DNA of 32,414 bases from the IMG/VR virus record IMGVR_UViG_3300027582_000011, positions 1 to 32,414 of that record; one strand, given 5' to 3'. The position numbers were made by a program, and so were the translations under genes. The notes beneath the pieces are model-generated. The model ran no database searches, was not told the DNA's origin, and saw only the letters and a program-made list of their open reading frames with translations. The DNA is from a virus. Positions 16,278 to 31,778 of this stretch are shown here, one piece after another. Each line of letters starts with the position of its first letter. Position 1 is the stretch's first letter.

Positions 16278-17195
16278 ATGGCGGTTAGAACACCTCTTAC
16301 ACTCGATGGGTCTAATAACCTTAAAGAGATGACAACAGCTCAGATAAATGCTGTTAAGGATAGGGTTAGATACCTATACGGAGAAAACCCCTCAGTAATT
16401 CTATCAAGACAAAACAGTGGAGGTAACCTTGGTGGTCTTAGTGATACCAGAAAGCAAGCTGGCGCTTCTACAACCGATGTAACAAACTTTCACACTGAAG
16501 CAGAAACACCTAATATATCCACAGTGACAGTAGAATATAGTTGCGTCCATCAGGGATTTGCCACTGTTGGTTATCCAGCAGATACAAATAATGTTGCCTT
16601 TCCAATCTATCAGACAAGTGGTAATATTAGAGCCATGACTAGGCAAGATGTGGAAGATACATTTATCAGACCAGCTTTTAATACAATGACAGGTGCTGCA
16701 GGGCAACCAGGAACATATTACATTCATACCAGTTCAACCCTGTCAGGATATACAGCAATATCAAATGATGCAATATATATTGATAGTAGGGCAAATGTTG
16801 GAGCATATACTGCTGGTGGTATTGGCGAACAACAAGACCAGCCAACTAATATTCAGGGTTATTATCTATTAAAAGCTAATAATATTTCTGCACCTAGTAT
16901 GGTGCAGATGCTGTTTATCCGTAATGCAGATGCAAACATTGAGCAATACACTCAAGCTGAGATGGATGCTTGGCTAACCCAATCTATTCAAGCCGAAGCA
17001 AGATCACATCTAAGTTATAACTTCAACGGTAGTGGAATAAACCTTGGGTCTGGTATGACAGATACTATCCTTAATGGATCCGGTAATTACCAAACACGCT
17101 ATGTAGGTCTTGATGACTACCGAACACAAGAATTTCCTAACGGTTCAGCCGTTGTAGCTGCAACCCACAGACTTAAAATGGAGACTACAACATAA
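16278..17195 (+). CDS. Putative virion structural protein
   Basis: This 305-residue protein starts MAVRTPLTLDGSNNLKEMTT. The middle is beta-rich with many Asn, Gly and Tyr. The C-terminal part has LSYNFNGSGINLGSGMTDT and GSGNYQTRYVGLDDYRTQEF, a sequence style I associate with structural proteins of marine T4-like phages. There is no catalytic motif or membrane segment. It starts 4 bases after the fibre-like gene and shares one base (TAATG) with the next gene, so it belongs to the same late transcript. The structural role is an inference from context and composition. Confidence 0.55.
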   Translation: MAVRTPLTLDGSNNLKEMTTAQINAVKDRVRYLYGENPSVILSRQNSGGNLGGLSDTRKQAGASTTDVTNFHTEAETPNISTVTVEYSCVHQGFATVGYPADTNNVAFPIYQTSGNIRAMTRQDVEDTFIRPAFNTMTGAAGQPGTYYIHTSSTLSGYTAISNDAIYIDSRANVGAYTAGGIGEQQDQPTNIQGYYLLKANNISAPSMVQMLFIRNADANIEQYTQAEMDAWLTQSIQAEARSHLSYNFNGSGINLGSGMTDTILNGSGNYQTRYVGLDDYRTQEFPNGSAVVAATHRLKMETTT

Positions 17196-17704
17196 TGACT
17201 ATACATAACCTAGAAATACACACAGCTCATTTTGTTAACAATGAACGCACAGAGATAGAAGTGCTATTTCTTTCTGATAAATCTACTGATGATAATATAG
17301 TTATGATTCCTTATATTATTGAAGCTAAAGAAGGTGATGCTGATTATGAATGGTTAATTAGTAAGATGGATATTGACAAAATTCATGAGAACACATTTAA
17401 TAAGTTTCGCAGAGAAAATGAAGAGTTTCGTGAAACTATTATTGCCACTGGTAAAGAGATGGGTCTTATCTTTGATAACAATGGTGTGAACAGTAATCTA
17501 TATGAAGCACTTGTAGATACTTTGTTTGAGCCATTCGTCGAAGAAGACATGAAAGAAAAATTATTTGTAATGAAACTTAAACTCTTTGAGGTAGAGGCTA
17601 TTAAGTCTAGTAAAGATAGAGAACTAAAGGCTAAACTAAGAAAGTCAAAAGACTTCTTATCAGCTATTAAGTATGCAACAATGATTGCACTACCCGAAGA
17701 ATAG
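17195..17704 (+). CDS. Acidic protein of unknown function at the end of the structural block
   Basis: The product has 169 residues. The N-terminal ~70 residues are beta-patterned, followed by Glu/Lys-rich helices (NKFRRENEEFRETIIATGKE, then EEDMKEKLFVMKLKLFEVE). No known domain is recognisable. It is coupled to the previous gene by a one-base TAATG overlap. Its last 15 bases overlap the 3' end of the oppositely oriented glycosyltransferase gene. It could be a tail-assembly factor, but nothing in the sequence proves this. Confidence 0.6.
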   Translation: MTIHNLEIHTAHFVNNERTEIEVLFLSDKSTDDNIVMIPYIIEAKEGDADYEWLISKMDIDKIHENTFNKFRRENEEFRETIIATGKEMGLIFDNNGVNSNLYEALVDTLFEPFVEEDMKEKLFVMKLKLFEVEAIKSSKDRELKAKLRKSKDFLSAIKYATMIALPEE

Positions 17705-18466
17705 ATCAAATTTCTTATGAACAAAATGTAAGAAGTGTGCAGCTGCAGTCATGTTCTGTTCATTGTGATCTAGTATAAAATTCCAAGGCATTCCAATATT
17801 AGTAAATGGTACGTTGTATTTCTCTATTATATAAGAGAATATAACCTCGTTGTTTAACACCCAATTCTTAGAGATTGGTTCTGGATAAAGATTATCTTCC
17901 AACGAATCATTAAATGTACATACAGCTTCTACTGATCTCTCAGCAAAATTAAGATTACGAACACAGTCTGCATTCATTACAATAACGGCTGTATTGATAC
18001 AACTCTGAGTACCATTTATATCATGTAAGAGTAACATGGCTTTTTTATTATGAGCCTTTGTATACATATCCATGGAATTCCATTCAAAGTTATCATTAAA
18101 CCTTTCACGTAATTGCTCATTATCAATATCTGCAACTTCTATATCAAAGGCACATACTTTGTTTAGATCAAATCTTTCAAAGATGTTTACTGTAGTATTA
18201 GGTATCACATCAAAGTCGATATACATTATCTCGTCATATTCATTACGCAGCTTTTCGAACATATTAAGTTTCTCAAACTGTACATCAATATAATCTGTTG
18301 AATACGGTTTAAACAGTTTGTAGTCAGCACCAACAGCTGTGGCATAGTCTCTATGTTTTTGCTCGATATGATATGCATATTTCCTAAACTGTTCTCTTTT
18401 AAATATGGGAACAGATTCGTGATCAGCAAGATCATTTCTATATAAGCTGAATATTATTCTTTTCAC
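17690..18466 (-). CDS. DXD glycosyltransferase, GT-A type (copy 1 of a tandem pair)
   Basis: This 258-residue protein has a GT-A nucleotide-sugar transferase pattern. It begins with MKRIIFSLY and QKHRDYATAVGADYKLF (residues ~36-52). The metal/sugar-nucleotide motif is DEIMYIDFDVIP, with DFD at 84-86. A later acceptor-side region has NNEVIFSYII and a MPWNF segment. It is paralogous to the next upstream gene (same N-terminal layout and DVIP motif) but ends earlier, at HKKFDLFFG. It is the last gene of the - strand operon. Its start lies inside the preceding gene (29-base overlap), and its 3' end overlaps the convergent + strand gene by 15 bases. Donor and acceptor are unknown. Confidence 0.75.
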   Translation of the reverse strand: MKRIIFSLYRNDLADHESVPIFKREQFRKYAYHIEQKHRDYATAVGADYKLFKPYSTDYIDVQFEKLNMFEKLRNEYDEIMYIDFDVIPNTTVNIFERFDLNKVCAFDIEVADIDNEQLRERFNDNFEWNSMDMYTKAHNKKAMLLLHDINGTQSCINTAVIVMNADCVRNLNFAERSVEAVCTFNDSLEDNLYPEPISKNWVLNNEVIFSYIIEKYNVPFTNIGMPWNFILDHNEQNMTAAAHFLHFVHKKFDLFFG

Positions 18467-19292
18467 ACCATTGCCTTACATAGTCAAAGTCTTTACTCAC
18501 ACAGTGAATAAACTTTGCATTCTTTGTTATATAACTCCATTTATCCATAAAGAAGTGCCACTGTTCTCCTAAGACTTGATACTCGACTTCATTCATATAA
18601 GTCTTATATCCCCATATAGTTTCGTTATCATATCCAAACATATAACTTATAGACTCAGGATAGAAATCTGGATCTGATATCATATTAGACATTAGACCTA
18701 ATGTCTCTTCAAAGTTATCAAAGTATCCTAGCTTATCTAAGTGTTCTTTTCTTGCACCTACTATTGCTGTATTAAATACATCTGGTTCATCTACCCACAT
18801 TCCACTTTCACCAAGCATACATCTACTGTTCCACATCTTAGCCATAGGTGATCTTACATGGTGTGTATAGTTATGAGTCTGTAGTTTGTTTATAGGTTGC
18901 TGACCTGTGGCAGTACCAGTCATAAGAGCAACACCTTTTGATAAGTCTATTTCTTCAAAGAAGTTAAGGTCAGTCACAGGTATCACATCTATATCTAAAT
19001 ATAATACCTCATCATATGTTTCAGATAAATTGTGTAATAGTTTTATCTTCCAAAAATTAACTATATTATAATATGATACATCTGGATAGTTATCATTAAA
19101 CCATTTAGCATATTCATCAAACTCTTTATCTTTTACAAAATGTTTATAGTCGACACCAATTGATTCAGCATATCTTTGTTGACTTGCTAGTAACCATTCA
19201 TAGTTATCAGCGAACTTGTCCTTAGACTCATGATGCGATACAAGTTTTTCTTTAGGTATATCTATGTAGAAACTGTATATAACCCTACGCAT
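18438..19292 (-). CDS. DXD glycosyltransferase, GT-A type (copy 2 of a tandem pair)
   Basis: The product has 284 residues. RYAESIGVDYKHF (residues ~40-52) and YDEVLYLDIDVIP (DID at 100-102) match the neighbouring 258-residue protein, so these are tandem paralogues. A segment NTAIVGARKEHL and a C-terminal FIHCVSKDFDYVRQWCEKN follow. The start ATG has an AGGA ribosome site about 4 bases upstream, inside the end of the preceding gene (8-base overlap). By family it should move a sugar from a nucleotide sugar in the cytoplasm; donor and acceptor are unknown. Confidence 0.75.
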   Translation of the reverse strand: MRRVIYSFYIDIPKEKLVSHHESKDKFADNYEWLLASQQRYAESIGVDYKHFVKDKEFDEYAKWFNDNYPDVSYYNIVNFWKIKLLHNLSETYDEVLYLDIDVIPVTDLNFFEEIDLSKGVALMTGTATGQQPINKLQTHNYTHHVRSPMAKMWNSRCMLGESGMWVDEPDVFNTAIVGARKEHLDKLGYFDNFEETLGLMSNMISDPDFYPESISYMFGYDNETIWGYKTYMNEVEYQVLGEQWHFFMDKWSYITKNAKFIHCVSKDFDYVRQWCEKNNIQLI

Positions 19293-20604
19293 ATCCTATC
19301 ACCATAAATCTTTTATACCCATTTGGCATATCTAAAGAACCTTTATATAATATTTCTTTGAGACCAGTATTCTCAACTAGCTCATCTTCACTATTCACAC
19401 AGTTGATATGATCTGGTACATGGAACATATTATTACTTTGTACAGCAAAGAGACAGTTGTCTTTATATTCTTTCTTTGCTAGTATAGTATGTAATGGTGG
19501 CATATGTTCAGATGATGTGTTAATAACCAAGTCAGTATCAATATCTGTTTTATGTTTATCTAATACATCTGCACAATGAGTATCTAATACATGAAGATAT
19601 TTAAGGTGAGAATTTAATAACCTGCAATAGTGTAGAGCGTTATCATCTATGTCGAGATTAGTTATTCTATTGACTGAGTATAAATCATTTACAAGCATAG
19701 AGGATATAGGGTGAGCAAACCATCCACCCCATAACTGAACTTTGTTTATACTAAGCTGATGATGTTCTTTAACATTTTCTATTAACCATTGCTTAGATGC
19801 AACTTGATTAGGCGACATACTGTCTAAGAAATGTTTAGTATCACCACCTGAATACTCACACTCCCATAGAGCTTCCCAAACTCTTGTATCAATACCCGTA
19901 AAGTTATCTTTACCATTCCAGTAATGTTCCATACCTTTATAGCCATAGTCATCTAACAGATACTTGCCATCTTTCTTATCACGTCTCCAACCATTAAAGA
20001 TACATACTGTATAATCTGGCATACCATAGTATCCCTTAAAGTCGCCATATGTGTAACAGTTATCTTTATCAATACCAAATAGTCTGGAGTAGATTAGCTT
20101 TTCTGGAAAGGTGTTTATATCTTTTATCTCATGGTATAAGAAGCCGTCTATGCCATTATATGCCCAAGTATAGTGATCAATGTCTTCTTTAAACTTATTC
20201 CATATATGAGATAGATCGCCACTCCAAACCATAACTGAAGAGTTATAATTCATATCATTACCTTTTAGCTCATAGTCTTTCCAAAAGGCTTTTACCATAC
20301 AGAGCTTGTTAGGTCTTATGCTATCAATAATAGGCTGTAGATTGTTTTGTATAACCACATCAAGATCAAAGAACATATGTTGATCTGGTTCTTGGTCGAA
20401 TAGAGTTAGTTTCCACCACCAGTTTTCTAAACCTAAAGAAGTATCTAAAGGTTTTATTTGTATATCTTCATGTATGTTATCTGAGTTTTCTGTATGACAA
20501 ACAAATGTAAATGGTATGTCTATGTTATTAGATACCATTGTATATAATCTATTCACGTGTTCGTGACTAAACTTGTTACCCCATTTTACGCATGATATAA
20601 TCAT
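19285..20604 (-). CDS. Fusion: GT-A glycosyltransferase and SAM-methyltransferase-like domain
   Basis: This 439-residue protein appears to hold two domains. Residues 1 to about 240 look like a GT-A glycosyltransferase: MIISCVKWGNKFSHEHVNRL, then ENWWWKLTLF and the DXD motif FFDLDVVI (DLD at 80-82). Residues about 285-400 resemble a class I methyltransferase: WGGWFAHPISSML (292-304), an acidic strand end NLDIDD (317-322), and DLVINTSSEHMPP (358-370) in the position of motif IV. The linker is about residues 245-280. It overlaps the carbamoyltransferase gene by 29 bases and the next gene by 8. A joint sugar-transfer and methylation role is inferred; the methyltransferase call is less certain than the glycosyltransferase call. 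Confidence 0.65.
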   Translation of the reverse strand: MIISCVKWGNKFSHEHVNRLYTMVSNNIDIPFTFVCHTENSDNIHEDIQIKPLDTSLGLENWWWKLTLFDQEPDQHMFFDLDVVIQNNLQPIIDSIRPNKLCMVKAFWKDYELKGNDMNYNSSVMVWSGDLSHIWNKFKEDIDHYTWAYNGIDGFLYHEIKDINTFPEKLIYSRLFGIDKDNCYTYGDFKGYYGMPDYTVCIFNGWRRDKKDGKYLLDDYGYKGMEHYWNGKDNFTGIDTRVWEALWECEYSGGDTKHFLDSMSPNQVASKQWLIENVKEHHQLSINKVQLWGGWFAHPISSMLVNDLYSVNRITNLDIDDNALHYCRLLNSHLKYLHVLDTHCADVLDKHKTDIDTDLVINTSSEHMPPLHTILAKKEYKDNCLFAVQSNNMFHVPDHINCVNSEDELVENTGLKEILYKGSLDMPNGYKRFMVIGYA

Positions 20605-22084
20605 TAATTACTAATATATCCATTTCAGTTCTATTAAAGGTATCTATAGCTTCCTCTGGAGTCTCTACAATAGGCTCTTGACAATTAAAGCTAGTGTTAA
20701 GTAACATCGGCACTCCAGTAATCTTATAAAACTCATTGATTAGATCATAAAACTTCTCATTCTGTTCTCTGTTCACTGTCTGAATACGAGATGTATTATC
20801 AACGTGAGTCACACCAGGAATCTTATTAGACTTTACTTTTACTATTCGAGACATATAAGGGCTTGGTGATTTAGTATCAAAGTAATCTTGATAATGTTCT
20901 TCAAGTACAGATGGAGCGAAGGGTCTGAAGTCTTCACGTTGTTTTATTGTGTGATTGATAATACTTTTTATTTTAGGATTTCTAGGATCTGCAAGAATAC
21001 TTCTATTACCTAATGCTCTGTGTCCACTTTCAGACTTACCTTGAAACCAACCAATGATCTTGCCATCAGCAATAGCTTGAGCAACTTCTTTTATATCTAC
21101 TTTCTCATCACCAATAAATTCATACTCTTTACCTGCATACACATCTGGTATATGAATATTGTTATTAAGAGTATAGTCAGCATGCATATATGTTCCAAGT
21201 GCTTGGCCTTCATCACCAGGAGCAGGTGGAACAAAAACATTCTTCCATTCTTCTGTTAGTAATTCATTCATATATCCATTATATGCTACACCACCTGTGA
21301 CGCACAAGTTGTCGCTAGTCTTATATTTCTTTACAGCATCCATAATTCTTTCTTGAGTTGCTTGCTGTAAAGTATATGCTATATGTCTTGGATTTTCTTG
21401 CTGAACAATTTTCCATAATTGATACCAAATTTTCTTATCTTTTCTATCTTCCATACTCCAAAACTCATCTAACAGCATATAAAGTTTCATAAGTATTTTA
21501 CGTGACTTGCCATAACCTACCAATCCCATAACTTTACTTGCGCCAAGAGTGCCAAAGCCTAATTCTTTTGAAAAATAATCCCACAGTTCACCTATAGATA
21601 AGTTTAAGTCATGAGGTGTGCCATTCTTATCAAAGAACACTGTATTGTATTTGTACCCTCGACCATCTATAGCTAATATGTCTGACTCATCAAAACCGGA
21701 ATTTAAGTATGCATAAGCTGCATGTGATTGATGGTGATCTATGTAATAGATGTTTCCATCTTTCTTATAGTCCCAAAGGTTATTAGGCTTCCAATCCATA
21801 AATTCTGTTTTTAATTCAAGATCAGGCATTTGAGTAACACCGCCTATGGTTGTTGTATAAGCAAATATATTATCGTCTTCTATGTTCCAATACTCGTTAT
21901 AAAATTCTTGACCTGAAGTATTATCTTGTCTATTCATTTTATCTACTGTAGTATGATGAGGATATGCATCATAGTGCCAAGGTATATTATGCTTACGACG
22001 AGTATATCTTTCCCTTTGGTTATGCCAAGTTCCATCATATGTATTATGATCGTGAGGACCAAATGCTGCACTAAAGATTTTCAT
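20576..22084 (-). CDS. Carbamoyltransferase (NodU/CmcH/TobZ family)
   Basis: This 502-residue protein has the full family layout: an N-terminal RERYTRRKH, HHQSHAAYAY (117-126, metal-binding histidines), LAIDGRG (137-143), CVTGGVAYNGYMN (261-273), VPPAPGDEGQALG (285-297), SGHRALGNRSILADPR (353-368), REDFRPFAPSVLEEHY (383-398) and PMLLNTSFNCQEPIV (459-473). These enzymes form carbamoyl-adenylate from carbamoyl phosphate and ATP and pass the carbamoyl group to a hydroxyl of a sugar or antibiotic. A variant is ESGH before RALGNRSI, where EFGP is common. The gene overlaps both neighbours (14 and 29 bases). Carbamoylation of a sugar used by the adjacent glycosyltransferases is the likely role. Confidence 0.88.
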   Translation of the reverse strand: MKIFSAAFGPHDHNTYDGTWHNQRERYTRRKHNIPWHYDAYPHHTTVDKMNRQDNTSGQEFYNEYWNIEDDNIFAYTTTIGGVTQMPDLELKTEFMDWKPNNLWDYKKDGNIYYIDHHQSHAAYAYLNSGFDESDILAIDGRGYKYNTVFFDKNGTPHDLNLSIGELWDYFSKELGFGTLGASKVMGLVGYGKSRKILMKLYMLLDEFWSMEDRKDKKIWYQLWKIVQQENPRHIAYTLQQATQERIMDAVKKYKTSDNLCVTGGVAYNGYMNELLTEEWKNVFVPPAPGDEGQALGTYMHADYTLNNNIHIPDVYAGKEYEFIGDEKVDIKEVAQAIADGKIIGWFQGKSESGHRALGNRSILADPRNPKIKSIINHTIKQREDFRPFAPSVLEEHYQDYFDTKSPSPYMSRIVKVKSNKIPGVTHVDNTSRIQTVNREQNEKFYDLINEFYKITGVPMLLNTSFNCQEPIVETPEEAIDTFNRTEMDILVINDYIMRKMG

Positions 22085-22838
22085 GTATAAATTCCATAAT
22101 TAATCTGTGTCCTATTTTATTAGGGTGACCATCATGAGGTCCAATTACATAATCCTGGGGAACATCTTTAGCGCTTTTAAAGAATGAGCTATCAGGATTA
22201 TCGTTAGCAAGTTTATGAAACTCACGCCATTGTTGATGAACTGTATGATCTCCAACAACAAAACCACCGGCTTCATTATAGATAGGCCATCCTATAAAAT
22301 TACTCTTATCTATATGAAAGAACTGTGGCGATTCATTAATATATTTTATACAGTCCAATCTAGTTTCTTCATATGCATCTGAATGATATTCGGATATATA
22401 ATCCATAAATAGAGAAATCATTTGAAACTGCTTATATGGTAAATTATGAGTCTCACATAGCATCTGTAAGTTGTAAAAGTTTCTTATACTTTTTCTTATA
22501 AAGTGGTATAATTCTCCTCGTGGGCTTACTCGAGTGTTATGCCATGTTCTAGGCAATTTTCTACTAGAGTGATGCATAACAAGTTCATAGTCCATTCTCT
22601 CTGATTTAGACCAAGCAGCAACAACCATTCCTATATTTTCTGGATTGTTTTTGCATACATAGTCTTGTATAGAGGAATATATCTGCTCGTTGCCTGCTCC
22701 TGATTGAGCTAAACACACTAGATCCATATCTAGTTTTTCAGCTAATAGAATAGGCCATGTTACAATGTCTGTTCCATCATAAGAGTTACAGCGCTGATCA
22801 GAAAAACTATCACCGCCTACTAACAAGGTCTTTCTCAT
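22071..22838 (-). CDS. SGNH/GDSL-type hydrolase-like protein
   Basis: The product has 255 residues. Block I is LLVGGDSFSD with the candidate nucleophile Ser11. A Gly-bearing block II is SGAGNEQI at about 45-52, and block V is DGHPNKIGHR with Asp236 and His238. These are the catalytic elements of SGNH esterases and acyltransferases. There is no signal peptide or membrane helix, so it probably works in the cytoplasm. In a glycan-type operon such a protein could remove or transfer an acetyl or acyl group. It overlaps the radical-SAM gene before it by 4 bases and the carbamoyltransferase after it by 14. Confidence 0.7.
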   Translation of the reverse strand: MRKTLLVGGDSFSDQRCNSYDGTDIVTWPILLAEKLDMDLVCLAQSGAGNEQIYSSIQDYVCKNNPENIGMVVAAWSKSERMDYELVMHHSSRKLPRTWHNTRVSPRGELYHFIRKSIRNFYNLQMLCETHNLPYKQFQMISLFMDYISEYHSDAYEETRLDCIKYINESPQFFHIDKSNFIGWPIYNEAGGFVVGDHTVHQQWREFHKLANDNPDSSFFKSAKDVPQDYVIGPHDGHPNKIGHRLIMEFIHENL

Positions 22839-23653
22839 AATACAGCTCCAGCTTCCATTATTCTCAGTATTTGTTCTTGAGGTCTTTTATCTATGTATTC
22901 AGTACAGCCTATACAATACTTCTCAAAGCCAAATAGTTCAAAATTCATCATCTTTTGTAGGTTCTCGTATGTTACATCAAACTGTTTAGAACCTTTGATT
23001 ACTTTCTTACTGCAGTGTCTTATCTTTTGTATCTCAAAGTCTATCACTGGTACCTTCGGAAAGGCAGCACACATACGTCTATCAAATTCTGGTGCTTGTG
23101 TTGTTTCAGTCCAATCTGGAGACCTTGAATTAAACTCTTTAAGTAAAGTGTTCTTATGATCTATCTCAGATAAGTCATGGTTATCTCTATGAGCAAAGTA
23201 TCCTGGTGTCTTTATAACAAGATTATAATTGTTCATATCATTCTCAGCAAAGAATGGAAAGTTGCCTAGCTTCTCTATCTTATCTTCATGGAAATCTAAT
23301 ACCAGATGCTCAACATAATAGATGTTAGGATCTTCCAAAACATATGGATGAAACTTTCTTACAAGAGAATTAGAAAGCACAGATAGTTTTATGTTGTCGT
23401 ACTCTTTAATCTTAGTAATAACTTCTTTAAGGTTCTTGATTAGCCCTGGCTCGCCACCAAGTAAATTAACATTAACCTTATGCCCATCAAAGCCATCAAG
23501 TGTTCTAGTGAGAAACTCCATATCAACATGAAGGTTACGCATCTGTAAAGTCCAAGCAGTGCAATAGTGACAAGACTTATTACAAGACTTAGACAAATAG
23601 AAGTCAACACCAAGGTAACCCTGTTCTCTTATTTGTTGTATGTTAGGTATCAT
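22835..23653 (-). CDS. Radical SAM enzyme with additional C-terminal cysteines
   Basis: This 272-residue protein has the radical-SAM cluster motif CNKSCHYC (Cys24, 28, 31) and the SAM-contact motif LLGGEP (Gly66-Pro69). The C-terminal third has further cysteines (MCAAF, IRHCSKK, YCIGCTEY) that may bind an auxiliary iron-sulfur cluster. Radical-SAM enzymes cleave SAM to a 5'-deoxyadenosyl radical and modify peptides, sugars, RNA or cofactors; the substrate here is unknown. The gene overlaps the preceding small SPASM-like gene by 4 bases and the SGNH gene by 4. It differs from the split radical-SAM pair members of this operon, being a single chain. Confidence 0.82.
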   Translation of the reverse strand: MIPNIQQIREQGYLGVDFYLSKSCNKSCHYCTAWTLQMRNLHVDMEFLTRTLDGFDGHKVNVNLLGGEPGLIKNLKEVITKIKEYDNIKLSVLSNSLVRKFHPYVLEDPNIYYVEHLVLDFHEDKIEKLGNFPFFAENDMNNYNLVIKTPGYFAHRDNHDLSEIDHKNTLLKEFNSRSPDWTETTQAPEFDRRMCAAFPKVPVIDFEIQKIRHCSKKVIKGSKQFDVTYENLQKMMNFELFGFEKYCIGCTEYIDKRPQEQILRIMEAGAVL

Positions 23654-23988
23654 GTTTCTTTTATATAACTTTCTTTACCATCATCATTATAAAAGGTTTC
23701 TCTTTTATGTTGTGGCGAATTTCTTTTCTTACATACTAAATGGCATATTGTAAACCCTTTACCATTTTTTAGATTTTCTTGAAACTCAAGCCATTCGTCT
23801 GTTAATAGAATTTCTTCTATCGAGTCGTAGTCGTAAATATAACTAGCTAATAGTAATTTTATATAATCAGGGTCTTTTCTATTAACTTGATTGTCTAACC
23901 AACAACAAGGTATGAGTTCGCCTCTATTAGTAATAGCAAATGCTTCTTGTCTTCCATCAAGACATTTTGGATCTAGTTCATCCATCAT
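23650..23988 (-). CDS. Stand-alone SPASM-like cysteine protein, partner of the preceding radical-SAM gene
   Basis: The product has 112 residues and no radical-SAM core. The cysteine pattern is Cys9, Cys28-Cys29 (ELIPCCWLDN), Cys82 and Cys86 (TICHLVCKK), with a DSIEEILLTDEWLEFQ helix between. Such patterns occur in the C-terminal SPASM domains of radical-SAM proteins, where they bind an auxiliary iron-sulfur cluster. Its ATG overlaps the end of the radical-SAM core gene (11-base overlap, ATGATGGATGA), so translation is probably coupled. It is a near-copy in layout of the protein at 27243-27530. A split enzyme made of two chains is the simplest reading; a frame error is possible but less likely given the second pair. 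Confidence 0.7.
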   Translation of the reverse strand: MMDELDPKCLDGRQEAFAITNRGELIPCCWLDNQVNRKDPDYIKLLLASYIYDYDSIEEILLTDEWLEFQENLKNGKGFTICHLVCKKRNSPQHKRETFYNDDGKESYIKET

Positions 23989-24622
23989 GTAAACTCAAGC
24001 TATGTTCCTTTGATGGTCTATACTCATCATTCTCTCCTAGCCATCGTGACGAGTTTACAATCATAAATTGTACTTCTGCTTTTTTAGCCATTTCATATGC
24101 TTCTTGTATATGATCTTCATTATATTTAAATACTATGTATTGCCATACAGGAATTTGTTTTAGATATTGTTTGGCTTCGACCATTATATCAAACAGTTTT
24201 TCTCCATCTTGGTTTATTCTATATTTATGACTCTCGTTAGGAAGCCCGTCTATTCCAAACCACCAACGAGCATTAGGATTGGCTTGAAAGGCCTTTGGAT
24301 ACCACTTTCTAGGTTTAGCTGCAGTAGCATGATGTACAGATACAGTATTATTATTTTTATATAACAGTTCTAAAAACTCAGTGAATTTAGGATGATGAAC
24401 AGGATCAGATACTTGCCCACAAAAGTTAATATGTGTAAAGTGTTCAACTATTTTACTAAATTCTTTTATACTCATATCATGACCTGGCACTTTAAGACCT
24501 TTGGACGTAAACGATGTAGCACGTTGGCATCTAGGACATTCAAGAGGGCATCGATGAGTGATATCAAGATTAACAGCTTGTCGCTGTAACATAGTTAAGA
24601 TAGCATTAGAATTGTATTGCAT
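23978..24622 (-). CDS. Radical SAM core protein lacking its own SPASM domain
   Basis: This 214-residue protein has CPLECPRC (Cys25, 29, 32). Instead of GGEP it has FCGQVSDPVHHP, and later GIDGLPNESHKYRINQDGE, WQYIVFKYNEDHI and SSRW. It is clearly paralogous to the protein at 27533-28261, sharing DGxPxESHKYRxNQDG and WQYIVFxYNE. The chain stops at SLSLHDG, where larger relatives would continue into a SPASM domain; that domain is encoded next at 23650-23988. It starts inside the DegT aminotransferase gene (28-base overlap). The substrate is unknown. Confidence 0.8.
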   Translation of the reverse strand: MQYNSNAILTMLQRQAVNLDITHRCPLECPRCQRATSFTSKGLKVPGHDMSIKEFSKIVEHFTHINFCGQVSDPVHHPKFTEFLELLYKNNNTVSVHHATAAKPRKWYPKAFQANPNARWWFGIDGLPNESHKYRINQDGEKLFDIMVEAKQYLKQIPVWQYIVFKYNEDHIQEAYEMAKKAEVQFMIVNSSRWLGENDEYRPSKEHSLSLHDG

Positions 24623-25677
24623 ATTTTATCTATTTCTTCATCAGTTAGCCAAGCATGTATAGGCAAAGACATAACAGTATCAGAAGCTATGCGAGAATTT
24701 GTGCAGTTATCTTTTCTATGGTGCTCTGTTATATATAATGAATTTTCGGATAAAGGCTTTTCATAGTGAATACTTGCATTAAGACCAATTGACTTTAATC
24801 CATCTTTAACTCTTTTACGTTGTTCTTTATCTTCAAATCTTATAACAAACTTATGAAAGTTGTGTTCTAGTGCCACTGGAATATTCTGGCATATAACATC
24901 ATACTTTAATTCTTTGGTATAAATGGCAGCTATCTGATTACGCTTCTCTTGCCACTTAGGCATCTGAGTTAATCTATACTGTATAATATCTGCATTGGTG
25001 ATAAACATCTTTGAGTTATAACCTAGTTCAGCAAAGTCTTTATCTTTACCATGGCGTCTTACTCTTTTTACATAGTCGGCATGTTCTTTGTTATCAGTCA
25101 TAAACATACCACCGCCAGATATACCAGCAACAACTTTATTACCATTGAAACTATATGATGAACATTCTCCGATAGTACCTGCTTTACGTCCACCAAGTGA
25201 TGAGCCAAGAGACTGAGCAGAGTCCTCTATGAATCTAATACCATTATTGATACACCAATGTTCTATCTCTTTTGTATCAGACATACTACCATAAAGATGA
25301 GTGTAGATTAGTGCCTTAGTTTTATTAGTCGTCATACGTTTAATGCTATCGAGTGATATATGATAGCTATGTAGACCTATATCACAAAACACTGGAGTTG
25401 CACCTACCATAGAAATGCAAGATGATGTAGAGATCCATGAGAAGTCAGAAACAAGAACCTCATCACCAGGTCCTATTCCCCATAAAGAAAATCTAAGAGC
25501 ATCTGTAGCATTAGCCACAGCTACACAATATGATCGTCCCGTGTATGAAGCAATTGCTGATTCTAAACCTTCGGTACTACCTTCAACTTCTTTGACCATT
25601 GCTTGATCAAAAAGTATATGATACATCTCTCTATTTTCTTGGTACTCTCTGTCCCAACCATTATATGATATTTTCAT
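24595..25677 (-). CDS. DegT/DnrJ/EryC1/StrS-type PLP aminotransferase
   Basis: The product has 360 residues, near the family size. It has NATDALRFSLWGIGPGDEVL (56-75), DFSWISTSSCISMVGATPVF (78-97), IEDSAQSLGS (150-159, with the cofactor Asp152), and SFNGNKVVAGISGGGM (176-191), where Lys181 is the expected Schiff-base lysine. These enzymes aminate keto-sugars on nucleotide diphosphates using glutamate. The gene begins inside the end of the preceding gene (17-base overlap). Amino-sugar synthesis fits the glycosyltransferases and carbamoyltransferase downstream; I see no nucleotide-sugar dehydratase in the window to feed it, so host sugars may be used. Confidence 0.88.
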   Translation of the reverse strand: MKISYNGWDREYQENREMYHILFDQAMVKEVEGSTEGLESAIASYTGRSYCVAVANATDALRFSLWGIGPGDEVLVSDFSWISTSSCISMVGATPVFCDIGLHSYHISLDSIKRMTTNKTKALIYTHLYGSMSDTKEIEHWCINNGIRFIEDSAQSLGSSLGGRKAGTIGECSSYSFNGNKVVAGISGGGMFMTDNKEHADYVKRVRRHGKDKDFAELGYNSKMFITNADIIQYRLTQMPKWQEKRNQIAAIYTKELKYDVICQNIPVALEHNFHKFVIRFEDKEQRKRVKDGLKSIGLNASIHYEKPLSENSLYITEHHRKDNCTNSRIASDTVMSLPIHAWLTDEEIDKICNTILMLS

Positions 25678-26512
25678 ATGCCCTCACTATCGGTTCTATA
25701 TTTGGAGTTTTTGGTTCCCTATTCCAATAAACAGAACCACCATCTTGTATTGACTTATCTCTCAAATATATTATCTTTTTATTATAATACTTACACTCCA
25801 TAAAAATTCTAGGAGCTGGATCAAAGGTAGATTTGGTATAAACATATGTACCAAACTTTCCTAGTAAGTTATTTATAGGTACAAATACATTGTTTAGTTT
25901 AGGATTAATATAGTCATCGTTATATGTTATAATACCATGATCGTCATAATCTTTAATTACCTTCTCAATATCTTTATAGTATTCTCTATTCGTACCTAAA
26001 AACAAATATTCAAAGTCTTTATCGTCTATAGGATCTTTATATAATGAGAAGTTAATTGTTTTCTCAAAGTGTGTACCAACTCCATTAGGATATACTTCAG
26101 TATCACACAGATCCACTATTTGTTTTGTTTTAAAATAATCTAATGCTGGTTTATAATTTTCTGTATCGTTCTCAGAATATACCGATATCAGTTTATTCTT
26201 AAACAGTTCATGTAAAAGTAGTAACTGATCCATATTGTAGTTGGCTTGTTCTTTATAGGGTATTGATACCATACTACGACCAAGAGTCATAGAAACATCA
26301 TCTGGTTCTGGCCAGTAATCGTCGTTTACTACATTCTCAACATACTTATATTTCTTATCTAATGATTTTATGTAGTCTTTGTGCTGATACTTACCTCTAG
26401 GTATAATAACTACACGTGCTGGTACACCGTTAGCATTAAGCTGACAGCAGTATTCATAGCTATAATGCAATAAGCCATCAACTGGCTTGCTTGTAACAAC
26501 AATGTTGATCAC
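25661..26512 (-). CDS. Possible GT-B-like glycosyltransferase, otherwise unknown
   Basis: This 283-residue protein starts with a GTG that overlaps the stop of the PP-loop gene (GTGA). The N-terminus INIVVTSKPVDGLLHYSYEY looks like the first beta strand and helix of a Rossmann-type fold. Near the C-terminus, YTKSTFDPAPRIFMECKYY (about residues 225-243) is reminiscent of the donor-binding helix of GT-B glycosyltransferases, where a Glu contacts the sugar. No full family signature is present. Its place between a PP-loop ATPase and a sugar aminotransferase supports a glycan role, but the identification is tentative. Confidence 0.5.
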   Translation of the reverse strand: MINIVVTSKPVDGLLHYSYEYCCQLNANGVPARVVIIPRGKYQHKDYIKSLDKKYKYVENVVNDDYWPEPDDVSMTLGRSMVSIPYKEQANYNMDQLLLLHELFKNKLISVYSENDTENYKPALDYFKTKQIVDLCDTEVYPNGVGTHFEKTINFSLYKDPIDDKDFEYLFLGTNREYYKDIEKVIKDYDDHGIITYNDDYINPKLNNVFVPINNLLGKFGTYVYTKSTFDPAPRIFMECKYYNKKIIYLRDKSIQDGGSVYWNREPKTPNIEPIVRAYENII

Positions 26513-27246
26513 GTCTCAAATGCCCATTTCTTTTCATTACACCAGAAACATTTACCACAACCTTTGGTAAAATATTCTGTATCTCTTTCGCTACCCACAC
26601 ATGATGACGTAAAAGGATATAATTTATCCATTAAGTTATGGAACTTATATACTCCAGCCACAAACTTCTTATCTACATTTACATAGGGTTGATACAGCTG
26701 ATTATAAAACCATGGAGAAACAGTTCTATCATCCCTGCGCCGTTCTGCCACATTATAAAAATTGTATTTGTGTTGTTCTTCTACAGGTGGATTTGCAGTC
26801 ATACCTGTAAGTATCCAATGATCTGGATATTGTTTACGGAGCCTTTCTGTATTCTTTCTAAGCATTAGTATTTTAACAAGACCGGAGAGTTTAGGACATC
26901 TATCTATTTTTGTACCATCTGGTAAAGTTATCTTTTCTTCCTCACGCTTTGATGCAGCATATTCTCTCCATTCTGGATCCATAATATCAAATGTATATAC
27001 ATCATGGTCTCTTATATTTACAGTAGGAAATGTTTCTCTCATATACTGCAATATATCTTTAGCGCATTCATAATCCATAGGAGCTGTAACATCTTGTCCT
27101 GTATATGGCACTATCTCTGTATCAGGAAAATGGAAACATATAAGATAGAATAGCGAAGCTGAGTCTAATCCACCAGACAAAGATAGTAAAACTTTATCAG
27201 GGCATTTGAAATCTATTGTTTGATCACCGTATGTTATTTTCATCAT
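26509..27246 (-). CDS. PP-loop ATP pyrophosphatase, QueC/ExsB-like
   Basis: The product has 245 residues. The PP-loop LSLSGGLDSAS (SGGLDS at 24-29) binds ATP and activates a substrate by adenylation. Four C-terminal cysteines (216, 230, 233, 236) in SSCVGSERDTEYF and CGKCFWC match the zinc site of QueC, which makes 7-cyano-7-deazaguanine. I recognise no other queuosine or deazaguanine-synthesis gene in the window, so a different amidation or adenylation substrate is possible, for example a sugar or a peptide. It overlaps both neighbours by 4 bases (ATGA and GTGA types). The fold call is firm; the substrate is not. Confidence 0.78.
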   Translation of the reverse strand: MMKITYGDQTIDFKCPDKVLLSLSGGLDSASLFYLICFHFPDTEIVPYTGQDVTAPMDYECAKDILQYMRETFPTVNIRDHDVYTFDIMDPEWREYAASKREEEKITLPDGTKIDRCPKLSGLVKILMLRKNTERLRKQYPDHWILTGMTANPPVEEQHKYNFYNVAERRRDDRTVSPWFYNQLYQPYVNVDKKFVAGVYKFHNLMDKLYPFTSSCVGSERDTEYFTKGCGKCFWCNEKKWAFET

Positions 27247-27530
27247 TTAGCCTTACAAAATTCTTTACATATTTCTGGTGAATTTTCTGGATCTTTAAAT
27301 AAGTCTTTATAAAAATTCTGCCATTCATCAGAGTTAATAACAGCTTTTACTTGTTCAACTGATTCAAGGTTATCCACATGAAACTTTTCTTGAAAGAAAC
27401 CTAGCAGTTCAAACTCTTTACGAGAATTTCTAGTGTCACATTCGCAGCAAGGTAAAAAGTATCCTCTGCTTGTAAACATAAGTTGTTTTGCAAATTCAAG
27501 TCGTAAGCAATCTGGAGCTATCTTTGTCAT
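27243..27530 (-). CDS. Stand-alone SPASM-like cysteine protein, partner of the radical-SAM gene before it
   Basis: This 95-residue protein has Cys8, Cys28-Cys29 with Cys31 (YFLPCCECD), Cys88 and Cys92 (ICKEFCKAK). The spacing matches the 112-residue protein at 23650-23988: one early Cys, a CC pair after about 19 residues, a DEW helix, then C-x3-C. It is the auxiliary-cluster type found at the C-terminus of radical-SAM enzymes but here it is its own gene. Its ATG is 2 bases after the stop of the radical-SAM core gene. A -1 slip on the A7 run just before that stop would read straight into this frame, giving a fused protein. It overlaps the PP-loop gene by 4 bases. Confidence 0.72.
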   Translation of the reverse strand: MTKIAPDCLRLEFAKQLMFTSRGYFLPCCECDTRNSRKEFELLGFFQEKFHVDNLESVEQVKAVINSDEWQNFYKDLFKDPENSPEICKEFCKAK

Positions 27531-27532
27531 AA

Positions 27533-28261
27533 TTATTTTTTTAATCTTTTAGTTTTAGGGTCTATGTCTGACATATTAATATGAAACATTCCATTTGTGA
27601 TTGTTCGTCTTTTAGCTATATATTCTTCTGATGGTTTTAGATGGTTGGTTAATGGCCACCATCTAGTGGAGTGTATTAAATCAAAATTCATGCCGTAATT
27701 TTTTGCCATCTGCATACAGTGATCAATATCATTTTCATTATAATTAAAAACAATATACTGCCAAGTTATCTCGCAGCCCATTGATCTTCCTAACTTCATC
27801 ATCTCCCACACATGAACACCATCTTGATTTACTCTATACTTATGAGACTCTTCAGGCACACCATCTAAAGCAAATATCCATTCAGTACCTACACGTCTTG
27901 TTTTAAATCCTTTGTTTGAATGTTTATTTGTTAATGAGAATGCTTTCTTCCACCAGTCTTCAGTCATTCCACTGCCATTAGTAGCCACTTCTAAACACTT
28001 ATTATTGTCGTTTAGATATTCTATAGTGTCTAAAAAATCTGGGTGATAAATTGGATCGGAGTGATTACCACAAAATACAAATTCATAACCAGCTTCTAAT
28101 ATAGGTTTATAATTGTCTAACCTATAAACATTAGCTCCTTTTAATACTGTAGGGTTGAATGTGCGCGCACAACCTGGACACTTCAATCTACAAGTTATAC
28201 CCGCTTCAAAGTTAATACCTTGATTTATAATCCAATCAGCTGTAGGGTTAGTCTGAAACAT
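27533..28261 (-). CDS. Radical SAM core protein lacking its own SPASM domain (second paralogue)
   Basis: The product has 242 residues. CRLKCPGC (Cys24, 28, 31) ligates the iron-sulfur cluster. FCGNHSDPIYHP takes the place of GGEP. ALDGVPEESHKYRVNQDG and WQYIVFNYNENDI are shared with the protein at 23978-24622. It ends DPKTKRLKK with the codons TTA AAA AAA TAA, and its SPASM-like partner follows 2 bases later. The gene starts 14 bases inside the 417-residue radical-SAM gene. It probably modifies the same kind of substrate as its paralogue, possibly at a different position; the substrate is unknown. Confidence 0.82.
   Translation of the reverse strand: MFQTNPTADWIINQGINFEAGITCRLKCPGCARTFNPTVLKGANVYRLDNYKPILEAGYEFVFCGNHSDPIYHPDFLDTIEYLNDNNKCLEVATNGSGMTEDWWKKAFSLTNKHSNKGFKTRRVGTEWIFALDGVPEESHKYRVNQDGVHVWEMMKLGRSMGCEITWQYIVFNYNENDIDHCMQMAKNYGMNFDLIHSTRWWPLTNHLKPSEEYIAKRRTITNGMFHINMSDIDPKTKRLKK
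27536..27542 (-). promoter_or_regulatory. Candidate slippery heptamer A AAA AAA before a stop codon
   Basis: On the - strand the radical-SAM gene ends TTA AAA AAA TAA. The seven A's form an X XXY YYZ heptamer. Slipping back one base reads ATA ATT ATG ACA AAG, the frame and start of the SPASM-like gene. The geometry is read directly; whether slippage happens is not known, and a homopolymer length error is an alternative. Confidence 0.4.
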
Positions 28262-29501
28262 TATAATATTCTTCTAGTTCAGGAAAGACATCAAATAACT
28301 CCATCTCCCATTTGGTACCTCTATATGCTTCATCGCCTTTCATTAAATAGTTGCATATTTCTTTAAAGTTTGCATCATCCTCTTCAGGTAATTCTAAGGC
28401 CTTTACTACATCTGCATATTTTGGATTATCTTTATAATATGGTATTAGTTTATCTTTTAATGGTTTAGGTAGATTATTTATTCTAAGCTGTTTTGGATCC
28501 TTTATTAACCAGTGGCTGTTATCTCTTATGTGAGGATTGTTCTTAGTGTATTCATCTATCTCATGAAACCGTAGTATGCCTGGAACCGATAGTGTAGAGT
28601 TTAGATTTATTACAACATTATTATATTTTGAACACGCTTCTATATTATCTTCAATTTCTTGGAATGATGATCTGCGTCTAATATAATCATTATACTTACC
28701 CACGGCATCAATAGAAACTGTTATAAGAACTTTTTTAAAATGGGGAATATAATTTAAAAAATTGTGTTTACCATTCTTTAACTTGGTTAGATTTGTTTGA
28801 TACTTTATTATAATGTTTTTAGATTCGCCGGATTGCACTAATCTATCCAATACAGAATAGTATTGCTTCATAACAAGAGGCTCACCTCCAATGATTTTTA
28901 ACGTCTTTACATATGGAGCTAATTCAATCATCTGATTAATAACTACATTATCATCTACCTTATCTAAGTTGGCAGTCATTGATAATTTCTTAGAACGATC
29001 CATATCATACCAAACAGTATCATTCCATACACCTTTATCGTATGCCATTTTCTGTCTAGTTGTAGAGCTAAAGTGATGGCACATATAGCAATCTAGGTTA
29101 CACTTAGATCCAAAAACTCTAAGCTGTAGTTCTAATATTCTTTCATCAAAATCATAACCAACAACTTGGCTCATCTTAACAGATCGAGTTATTATATCCC
29201 AGTAATCTTTTTTTCTTTTTGCTTGAGTTGTAGTATCAAGTCTTCGAGACCAGTCATATCTTTCTTCATCAAACTTACATTTCTGGCAGACTTGGTTTAC
29301 TAACTTATGATCAGAATTAGGATCAAGCATCTCAGATCGAAGTTGATTCATCTTATCACTCTGCATCCATTCTGTTATAGATGTGTTATCAACACCCATA
29401 TTCTCGTCAGGCACAGCAAAGTTGCAAGGACCATATTTGCCATTATCATGTGCATAAACCATAGTCCATGGTGATATACAAAAGAAATTATCACTATCCA
29501 T
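28248..29501 (-). CDS. Radical SAM protein with N-terminal twitch-like domain
   Basis: This 417-residue protein is the first gene of the - strand operon. An N-terminal cysteine region (FFCISPWTMVYAHDNGKYGP with Cys8, then Cys26, and VCQKCKF with Cys72 and Cys75) precedes the core, as in the class called twitch domain-containing radical SAM proteins, where the auxiliary domain comes first. The core motif is SKCNLDCYMC (Cys134, 138, 141), with KIIGGEPL (GGEP at 205-208). The C-terminus is acidic. Its ATG lies at the edge of the 43-base divergent gap. The substrate is unknown; in bacteria such proteins occur in varied modification clusters. Confidence 0.8.
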   Translation of the reverse strand: MDSDNFFCISPWTMVYAHDNGKYGPCNFAVPDENMGVDNTSITEWMQSDKMNQLRSEMLDPNSDHKLVNQVCQKCKFDEERYDWSRRLDTTTQAKRKKDYWDIITRSVKMSQVVGYDFDERILELQLRVFGSKCNLDCYMCHHFSSTTRQKMAYDKGVWNDTVWYDMDRSKKLSMTANLDKVDDNVVINQMIELAPYVKTLKIIGGEPLVMKQYYSVLDRLVQSGESKNIIIKYQTNLTKLKNGKHNFLNYIPHFKKVLITVSIDAVGKYNDYIRRRSSFQEIEDNIEACSKYNNVVINLNSTLSVPGILRFHEIDEYTKNNPHIRDNSHWLIKDPKQLRINNLPKPLKDKLIPYYKDNPKYADVVKALELPEEDDANFKEICNYLMKGDEAYRGTKWEMELFDVFPELEEYYNVSD

Positions 29502-29544
29502 TATTAACCTATATATAAAGTATATAGTTATATATTAAGGAAAT
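29502..29544. promoter_or_regulatory. Divergent AT-rich promoter region of the island
   Basis: These 43 bases separate the first genes of the - strand operon and the + strand arm. The self-complementary TATATATA at 29510-29517 could serve as a -10 element on either strand: TTATATATA on - differs at one base from TTATAAATA. Ahead of the + strand gene, AAGGA at 29537-29541 is a ribosome site 3 bases from the ATG. No exact TATAAATA is present, so the promoter class is uncertain. Confidence 0.4.
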
Positions 29545-30489
29545 ATGATGATTGAGAAAGCAGTCATAGAAATATGTGGTTCATGTAACTATACTTGTAC
29601 CTTCTGCCCACATTCTTTTGAAGGTGGTAGAGAAAAATCATTTAAAAGAATGATGAACTACCAGATGTTTGTCAATATGTTAGATCAGTTAACAGATACA
29701 GAATGTAAAGAGATTTATTTGGAAGGTTCTGGTGAGCCAACCATGAATAAGAAACTGCCTGACTTTGTGAAAGCTGGTACTGATAGAGGATTTAAAATGT
29801 CTTTTATCACTAACGGCTTCTGGTTTAAAGATGATCTTATGAAAAGAACCATTGATGCTGGTATGCACTTTGCTCGTATATCTGTTACCGGATATAATCC
29901 TCTATTGTATAAAGAACAAATGAGCAAAGATGCTTTCTATGAAGTTAGAGATAATGCAAATGCAGCTATTGAGTATGGCGGTAATATAGGTTCATATCAT
30001 TTAATCTTAGATAACGATAATGTAAACTATGAGTGTAGTGAATACATATGTAACTGGATTAAACATGTTCCTGGGGTTAAGGCTTCTATATGGAAAATGC
30101 ATAACTGGTCTGGTCAACTTGATGTCGACTGGAGAGTTGGTAAAAAGAAAAGAAGTTGTGGTAGACCTTTCTCTCCTGATCTGATTGTAAGAGCAGGTGG
30201 TAATAATGGTATGACTGGTGCTGTTGTTCCTTGCTGTATGGTTTTAGGTCAAGATAGTAAAGGAGTATTAGGACACTTATCACATCAGACTATTGAGGAA
30301 GTATGGTATGGAGATGAATACAATAAACTAAGAAAAGCACATGAGATGCATGAATTTGATTCTATAGATTATTGTAAGAACTGCGATATGCTATATGATG
30401 CACCAGAGGCTTTGGTTTGGTCCAACTTTGATGCTGACTATAATACACTCACTGGTTCTTCTTTTACTATGGAACAGTATAGGAAATAA
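29545..30489 (+). CDS. Radical SAM/SPASM protein, single chain
   Basis: The product has 314 residues. SCNYTCTFC (Cys14, 18, 21) is the radical-SAM motif and LEGSGEP (residues 59-65) the SAM-contact motif. The C-terminal SPASM region has SCGRPFSPDL (Cys205), VVPCCMVLG (Cys230-231), then TIEEVWYGDEY and YCKNCDM (Cys277, 280). This is the full-length form of the domain pair that is split into two genes elsewhere in the island. It starts the + strand arm with AAGGA 3 bases before the ATG, and the next gene starts one base after its stop. The substrate is unknown; SPASM enzymes often act on peptides, but glycan-cluster members also exist. Confidence 0.85.
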   Translation: MMIEKAVIEICGSCNYTCTFCPHSFEGGREKSFKRMMNYQMFVNMLDQLTDTECKEIYLEGSGEPTMNKKLPDFVKAGTDRGFKMSFITNGFWFKDDLMKRTIDAGMHFARISVTGYNPLLYKEQMSKDAFYEVRDNANAAIEYGGNIGSYHLILDNDNVNYECSEYICNWIKHVPGVKASIWKMHNWSGQLDVDWRVGKKKRSCGRPFSPDLIVRAGGNNGMTGAVVPCCMVLGQDSKGVLGHLSHQTIEEVWYGDEYNKLRKAHEMHEFDSIDYCKNCDMLYDAPEALVWSNFDADYNTLTGSSFTMEQYRK

Positions 30490-30490
30490 T

Positions 30491-30982
30491 ATGAAAACAA
30501 TTGTTATAGATGACTACCTAGACAAAGGCGTATATGATATGTTGTATAAAATGTATCAAAGCACTAAAGTTGGAGACGATGTAAAGAGAACTATGTTTGA
30601 TCATGATCCTACTCCTCAGATTGCTGATCTGATAAATGAGTTTACCAATAAAAGAGAATATGACAAACTAGCTAAGTTTATTCATACTGCTGCAACTCCT
30701 CCTAATTATCATCATAGAATACACGACGAAGCAGAGTTTAAGATTATGTCTGCCATTGTTTATATCGGACCAGAAAAGGCACCAGGCACTACATTCTATA
30801 TTGATGGTAAGGAAGACACGATTGAATGGAAACCTAACAGACTGATGGTCTTTTGTGGTGAAACTAATGTTACTTGGCATGATTATAAATCAGATGATAA
30901 TATGAGGTTTACATATAATTATTTCTTAGTTGATCCTACAAAGATTGAGAACGAGACATATAGAAATTATGTTCTATATTAA
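30491..30982 (+). CDS. Possible 2OG-Fe(II) dioxygenase-like protein
   Basis: This 163-residue protein starts at the ATG at 30491, chosen for the AGGA at 30481-30484 and because earlier in-frame codons lie inside the previous gene. The layout fits a small double-stranded beta-helix oxygenase: RIHDEAEFKIMSAIVYIG (possible metal pair His78 and Glu80, an HxE variant of HxD), GTTFY, PNRLMVFCGE, TWHDY (possible His130) and MRFTYNYFLV (Arg139 for 2-oxoglutarate). Such enzymes hydroxylate proteins, sugars or lipids. The metal triad is a reading of a short pattern, so the call is moderate. It overlaps the next gene by 14 bases. Confidence 0.55.
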   Translation: MKTIVIDDYLDKGVYDMLYKMYQSTKVGDDVKRTMFDHDPTPQIADLINEFTNKREYDKLAKFIHTAATPPNYHHRIHDEAEFKIMSAIVYIGPEKAPGTTFYIDGKEDTIEWKPNRLMVFCGETNVTWHDYKSDDNMRFTYNYFLVDPTKIENETYRNYVLY

Positions 30983-31778
30983 ATTTGATGAAAGAACAGT
31001 TCAGGCTCACGCAACTATTATGAGCCAATTCTGCCATGTGTTATGGCGGATTCAAAGTATGTGTGAAGAGGGTCTTATAACAGATAAGGTAACTATAAAG
31101 GTGTTTGTACCTGATTGGTTACATAATGGTAGCCATACATTAAATCACCAATATACATTCGAAGAACAGATTAGATGGTTTATGGATAGCTTTGAAGAAC
31201 CTTCTTGTGGCATAGAATGGATTATGGAGTTTTATCATGAAACCTGTGAAGTAACTTCTCCATGGAATGCACAATGTATTTGGCCATTTAAGAAACAATG
31301 GTTAGGTGGCGGTGGATATATCACTCTGCAGAAATATAAGAATCCCAAAGGCGGAAATAATTACAACAGAAATATAGCAGAGCAATCTGGTCAACTAGAT
31401 ATAATAGAAAATATAGAACAGTATTCTGATTATCCAGTTAAGATAGTTGACTATGAAATGCACCCTAGTGAACTAATTGATACTCTTATACATTCTGAGA
31501 AACACTACACCTATATGGGCGGCAGTTATTATACTGCAGCACTTATCAACTGTCCTACAATATGTTATGGACATCCTATAGATAATGTTTATCCTGATTC
31601 GCTCGAGGGTAAAGGTATGCCAGGTAGTGCATGGGGATCTGTTATGGGTAATGGATTCTCTACAATATGCCAATATGATTTTGATAAAACCTATAACGGG
31701 CCTCAGACATATGTTACCCATGCATCATCAGTAAATGAGCTAAAAGGATTTCTATTGGAGTTACCACTACCCTTATAA
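30969..31778 (+). CDS. Protein of unknown function, weak GT-B-like C-terminus
   Basis: The ATG at 30969 gives 269 residues. An upstream in-frame TTG at 30930 lies deeper in the previous gene and is less likely. The N-terminal half (HVLWRIQSMCEEG, KVTIKVFVPDW) looks like an alpha/beta domain. Residues ~180-201 (YTYMGGSYYTAALINCPTIC) recall the donor-side loop of some GT-B glycosyltransferases, in which a GG/SG-containing turn precedes a helix and a P-T-I strand. No complete family signature is present. It is the third gene of the + strand arm, and its stop codon overlaps a late promoter element. A glycan role is suggested by context only. Confidence 0.5.
   Translation: MFYIKFDERTVQAHATIMSQFCHVLWRIQSMCEEGLITDKVTIKVFVPDWLHNGSHTLNHQYTFEEQIRWFMDSFEEPSCGIEWIMEFYHETCEVTSPWNAQCIWPFKKQWLGGGGYITLQKYKNPKGGNNYNRNIAEQSGQLDIIENIEQYSDYPVKIVDYEMHPSELIDTLIHSEKHYTYMGGSYYTAALINCPTICYGHPIDNVYPDSLEGKGMPGSAWGSVMGNGFSTICQYDFDKTYNGPQTYVTHASSVNELKGFLLELPLPL

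Follow-up and report, generated by a model that had tools for sequence, protein, structure and literature searches.

Does the dense group of enzyme genes found between the structural genes of a T4-like phage fragment encode one pathway, or is it a collection of unrelated acquisitions? The fragment, a 32.4-kb viral sequence (IMG/VR record IMGVR_UViG_3300027582_000011, 32,414 nt), is referred to here in its whole length as the window, and the group of genes, spanning positions 17690-31778 and comprising 17 genes lettered A to Q from left to right, as the island. The original prediction, made from the sequence alone, described it as a self-contained pathway for building and attaching a decorated sugar or modified group. 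The analysis presented here indicates that the island is, on balance, probably the sugar-decoration part of the host recognition cluster (HRC) of marine T4-like phages, and that it encodes a two-layer pathway which would place a decorated sugar on the host surface glycan.

Conserved backbone and exchangeable cassettes

Relatives were collected from a scan of 2.9 million viral contigs (216 for F, more than 450 for K, 202 for J and more than 500 for H), and the loci were dereplicated at 95% identity. Four genes, encoding a compact GT-B-fold protein (J), a DegT-family sugar aminotransferase (I), a radical S-adenosylmethionine (radical-SAM) enzyme with a C-terminal Twitch domain (F) and an O-carbamoyltransferase (D), kept the order J-I-F-D in all 85 dereplicated viral clusters carrying them on one strand. 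F directly adjoined D in 57 of 71 cases, and across the 85 clusters the slot between J and I held 26 different gene strings, the slot between I and F another 26. The tail gene at 16278 served as a neutral anchor which presupposed no island. In the 31 clusters whose sequence extended 7 kb or more past this gene, F and I were found together 11 times, F without I never, and I without F once (Fisher p 1.4e-7). D accompanied I (p 1.6e-4), F (p 5.8e-4) and also E; these co-occurrence p-values overstate the case, since related phages are not independent. Scattering of the genes among relatives, named beforehand as the observation that would speak against a joint pathway, was not found.

Pairwise distances of I, F and D were mutually correlated (0.68-0.74), those of J correlated with the backbone at 0.53-0.59, and those of F and D with B, a family 8 glycosyltransferase (GT8), at 0.74-0.78. 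The distances of I, F and D also followed those of a small conserved tail-side open reading frame (ORF) flanking the island (17195-17704, plus strand; rho 0.61-0.76), which adjoins it in many relatives. Correlations with the backbone were 0.26-0.37 for H, a short radical-SAM protein, and -0.01 to 0.10 for K, a QueC-like ATPase, values which may be lowered by paralogues. Because backbone distances track the tail-side ORF and those of H and K do not, we read the island as two layers, a backbone that seems to have descended together with the tail region, and cassettes that appear mobile, and the single pathway originally proposed is refined to a co-inherited backbone with freely swapped additions.

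Full-domain fusions joined several members: K with N in 9 clusters, J with N in 4, J with L in 3, radical-SAM with Twitch in 7, and N with D and K with H in one each. These fusions tie radical chemistry to the glycosyltransferase and carbamoyl steps. A natural fusion of an N-type radical-SAM protein and a carbamoyltransferase (966 aa) was located at L238:3264-6164. The commonest extra island members were two groups of nitroreductase-like flavoprotein genes (60 and 39 of 108 clusters; e.g. L105:2510-3208, assigned by motif only, and L151:8045-8830, matching PF00881), none of which was present in the window.

Distribution outside phages

Among 84,980 genomes of bacteria and archaea, J was detected in two, in each case on a 7.5-kb contig of phage island genes. 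In the order to which the Pelagibacter metagenome-assembled genome belongs, 296 other genomes contained neither F nor B. Within the searches made, J and F were seen in phage DNA only. A derivation as host auxiliary genes was consequently rejected, and as far as these searches reach, the pathway was not copied from a host operon. Two contigs from metagenome-assembled genomes, PAFP01000047.1 (L250) and NYSS01000204.1 (L249), assigned to Pelagibacter and Planctomycetota, are made up of phage island genes and are probably mis-binned viral contigs.

Genomic setting and operon layout

T4-like baseplate genes occupied the first 17 kb of the window: gp25, gp6, gp8, a gp9/10-like gene, a VrlC homologue (9525-14576) and a fibre gene. 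The best-scoring isolates for VrlC included Phage C48C1 and Pelagibacter phage Mosig. The island was bounded by these VrlC and fibre genes on one side and by a tail fibre assembly gene on the other (31898-32251, plus strand; phrog_3304, E 7.7e-17), which agrees with the predicted location between structural genes; the window stops short of gp14. The island/tail-gene junctions recurred in independent near-identical contigs from other metagenomes (L015; L252/L253) and are therefore not an assembly artefact. Rfam, tRNA and promoter scans gave no signal above chance. At the left end, a baseplate-side protein with an open 5' end (3-1697, plus strand) combined two domains that cut the cell wall, Amidase_2 and transglycosylase SLT, in one chain.

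The ORFs were as claimed, with fourteen near-touching genes (A to N) in a minus-strand block at 17690-29501, followed by three plus-strand genes (O, P and Q) at 29545-30489, 30491-30982 and 30963-31778. Junctions within the block were -29, -8, -29, -14, -4, -4, -11, -28, -17, -4, -4, +2 and -14 bp, that is, overlaps at 12 of 13 and one 2-bp gap.

Sugar-modifying and transfer genes

B, D, I, L, N and O scored over curated profile cut-offs; E (SGNH), J (GT-B fold), K (QueC-like fold) and C (glycosyltransferase plus methyltransferase) were assigned by motif or fold only. Both D and I had been named in the original prediction. D (20576-22084), an O-carbamoyltransferase of the NodU/TobZ type, contained both Carbam_trans_N and Carbam_trans_C domains (PF16861, 231 bits; PF02543, 71 bits) and had GdmN, novobiocin carbamoyltransferase and TobZ as relatives in the PDB. 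I (24595-25677; PF01041, 262 bits) was related to scyllo-inositol transaminase, QdtB and WbpE, its solved relatives including scyllo-inos(it)ose aminotransferases. The model of J (25661-26512; AlphaFold2, pLDDT 92.6) resembled most closely UDP-GlcNAc 2-epimerase and WaaC, with T4 alpha-glucosyltransferase also among the GT-B fold matches.

Of the two paralogous GT-A transferases predicted, B (18438-19292) passed the GT8 cut-off (PF01501, 32.9 bits against 24.3), and A (17690-18466), 27% identical to B and carrying a DxD motif, stayed below it (E 7e-4). C (19285-20604), as a whole without a Pfam match, was taken to be a fusion of a GT-A-like and a methyltransferase half; the halves were separate genes in 69 other clusters and fused in 8, so that the fusion is real, and in Mosig the counterpart of the C-terminal half gave a weak match to Methyltransf_11. 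E (22071-22838), a putative SGNH-type hydrolase or acyltransferase, had no Pfam match; its GDS and DxHP motifs were supported by five residues invariant across 20 relatives (S11, G47, G49, D236 and H238). PDB profile searches with J and with E returned no match. Among the members originally regarded as weaker, the GT-B fold of J was upheld by its model, P (30491-30982) remained a weak candidate 2-oxoglutarate-Fe(II) oxygenase (phrog_274, E 3e-7; one relative weakly matching PF13640), and Q (30963-31778), possibly GT-B by eye, had no family match.

Radical-SAM, Twitch/SPASM and PP-loop genes

F, H, M, N and O all carried the CX3CX2C motif, corresponding to the five radical-SAM cores expected. 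With the Pfam Radical_SAM profile, N and O passed the cut-off, F fell just under it (28.4 against 29.5), and H and M were weak. F (22835-23653) carried in addition the four-cysteine Twitch motif C-x18-C-x32/35-C-x2-C, indicative of one auxiliary cluster and present in 30 of 30 relatives. Its core resembled viperin and BtrN; identity as viperin was rejected (35 bits against a cut-off of 180, the match being confined to the radical-SAM core).

H (23978-24622; PF04055, 20 bits) and M (27533-28261; phrog_21308, E 1.5e-14) were short paralogous proteins (32% identity) of one family with an invariant CX3CX2C (alignment A8), H lacking an auxiliary domain of its own. Each was accompanied by a stand-alone Twitch/SPASM protein, G for H (23650-23988; PF13186, E 0.0096, under the cut-off) and L for M (27243-27530; 22.8 bits, over the cut-off of 21.5), which bears out the prediction of two such proteins. 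All 90 stand-alone Twitch/SPASM genes examined lay beside, or were fused to, an H/M-type radical-SAM gene. N (28248-29501) was a radical-SAM protein with an N-terminal Twitch domain (N_Twi_rSAM; NF033640, 278 bits over nearly the full length, cut-off 170). O (29545-30489) combined radical-SAM and SPASM domains (PF04055, 57 bits; PF13186, 38 bits; both over the cut-off) and was rare (6 of 108 clusters).

K (26509-27246), a QueC-like PP-loop ATPase with the motifs SGGLDS and C-x13-C-x2-C-x2-C, had both the PP-loop and the Zn cysteines of QueC and held the predicted fold in its model (pLDDT 94.3). QueC (3bl5) was the best match of the fold search, at a TM score of about 0.5 and hence distant; the NCBIfam QueC profile gave 12.7 bits (cut-off 150.3), and K had no match among isolate phages. 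A queuosine/deazaguanine pathway for K was rejected, QueD occurring in none of 15 related records.

Proposed pathway and alternative explanations

The proposed backbone would consist of J, I, F and D; the C methyltransferase usually comes next, and in many relatives the GT8 genes B and A are present as well. F may convert a hydroxyl group of the sugar into a ketone by BtrN-like chemistry, and I would then aminate this ketone, a sequence which fits the tight link between F and I. D would carbamoylate and C methylate the sugar, J, B and A being candidates for its transfer to the glycan, and cassettes in the two slots (H-G, M-L, K-N, E) may add or change further groups. BtrN is itself a Twitch radical-SAM enzyme with a four-cysteine auxiliary cluster, and its substrate, an alcohol, is oxidised to a ketone (PMC9012708). 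The order of reactions, the product and the target are deduced rather than observed. By analogy with desosamine, the order may also be the reverse, the aminotransferase acting before a radical-SAM deaminase. In desosamine synthesis these roles belong to the aminotransferase DesI and the radical-SAM deaminase DesII.

The most likely target, in line with the proposal made for pelagimyophage clusters (PMC7029224), is the host surface glycan: the phage would modify the receptor layer of the infected cell and in this way keep its own virions from being trapped and shut out rival phages. Several observations weigh against this pathway. F matched BtrN over the radical-SAM core only (E about 0.006). 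Raw co-occurrence is biased, since J, F, K and H were used to retrieve the loci, and only the tail-gene-anchored scan is unbiased. In the 15 related records, the nucleotidyltransferase family PF00483 was never found, and nucleotide-sugar synthesis was limited to one short-chain dehydrogenase/reductase (SDR) epimerase, in 7. The activated sugar is therefore probably supplied by the host; the genes act as a set, as co-occurrence, order and fusions indicate, and the claim that the pathway is self-contained is not supported.

The main rival, which is less probable, is that the same pathway decorates the virion (glycosylated tail fibres or baseplate proteins) and not the host surface. The place of the island inside the tail module, the backbone distances tracking the tail-side gene and the GT8 and GT-B enzymes would all suit it; however, linkage to host-range genes explains the position equally well, and no protein-glycosylation signature was found. 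A chance pile-up of independent accessory genes (unlinked morons) at a recombination hot spot is disfavoured and improbable: H and K do have histories independent of the backbone, and other gene sets occupy the site in some relatives, but the fixed backbone order, the neutral-anchor co-occurrence and the fusions among members argue for joint function.

Two further explanations concern other substrates. Hypermodification of phage DNA, in which the enzymes would make an altered base as protection from host restriction, could accommodate the T4 alpha-glucosyltransferase among the fold matches of J and the QueC-like K; it is very improbable, since a thymidylate-synthase-like hydroxymethylase (PF00303) was absent from all 15 related records, as was QueD, GTP cyclohydrolase occurred in 2, and a sugar-type aminotransferase and a carbamoyltransferase predominate. 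Scarcely any weight, and if anything slightly less, is given to maturation of a ribosomally synthesized and post-translationally modified peptide. Enzymes of the radical-SAM/SPASM or Twitch type are commonly peptide maturases (PMC9012708), and weak NCBIfam matches pointed the same way, but the tightly packed junctions leave no space for a precursor ORF in the 14-gene block (the search covered this block), and the remaining island genes are glycan enzymes.

On the reading of a fixed backbone with exchangeable additions, each cassette would be expected to alter the decoration and not to build the scaffold. It is conceivable, though we regard it as doubtful, that a fixed aminating and carbamoylating backbone with swappable radical-SAM/Twitch and QueC-like/radical-SAM cassettes constitutes a virus-only combinatorial chemistry, making sugar derivatives unknown in cells that serve as a lineage-specific surface mark.

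Comparison with known systems

T4-like phages of the ocean that are rich in radical-SAM genes have been reported repeatedly, but without a unifying account (PMC5332604, PMC7029224); a T4-like ocean genome with 12 radical-SAM genes was described in 2017. A literature search found nothing joining radical SAM, carbamoyltransferase and tail fiber. The closest precedent is the pelagimyophage HRC, described in 2020, which lies between VrlC and gp14, contains GT8 genes and radical-SAM cassettes, and was proposed by its authors to modify the host O-chain (PMC7029224). The island likewise adjoins VrlC in a T4-like marine phage, with tail fibre genes, GT8 and radical-SAM cassettes, and its location is not new. 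In the sections of the HRC report covered, radical-SAM cassettes were named in passing, and no mention was found of a J-I-F-D backbone, radical-SAM/Twitch pairs or QueC-like fusions; in the literature searched we did not find the invariant backbone, the cassette logic or the fusions described.

The radical-SAM module of Campylobacter phages CP220 and CPt10, reported in 2010 (PMC2853527), is likewise interchangeable and combined several radical-SAM genes with two glycosyltransferase-like genes, but it lacked backbone homologues, included a glycine amidinotransferase and showed only distant radical-SAM similarity. The BtrN/BtrS aminocyclitol steps share with F and I the pairing of a Twitch radical-SAM dehydrogenase with a DegT aminotransferase; they differ in that F had no clear BtrN sequence membership and no cyclitol synthase was seen in the window.

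Pelagibacter phage Mosig EXVC030M (MT647606, about 60990-71305), whose host is Pelagibacter ubique HTCC1062, carried homologues of J, H, G, E, I, F, D, the methyltransferase and GT8 in one block, about 29-60% identical and with the backbone in the same order. It differed in lacking K, L-M, N and O-P-Q and in having nitroreductase-like genes, and several of its genes were annotated as molybdenum-cofactor enzymes. The GenBank label of its J and H homologues (L010:9563-11061), "molybdenum cofactor biosynthesis enzyme", looks wrong for J. A second block beside the Mosig island, by the fibre genes (L010:2702-8955), encoded Asp/Arg hydroxylases, a desaturase, a dioxygenase and a peroxiredoxin. The naturally split radical-SAM/Twitch pairs and the PP-loop/radical-SAM fusion offer material for enzymology, and the combination of a constant backbone, seen only in phages, with interchangeable cassettes gives the radical-SAM-rich T4-like ocean phages a testable pathway, for which Mosig, a cultured phage carrying the core, is a place to look.

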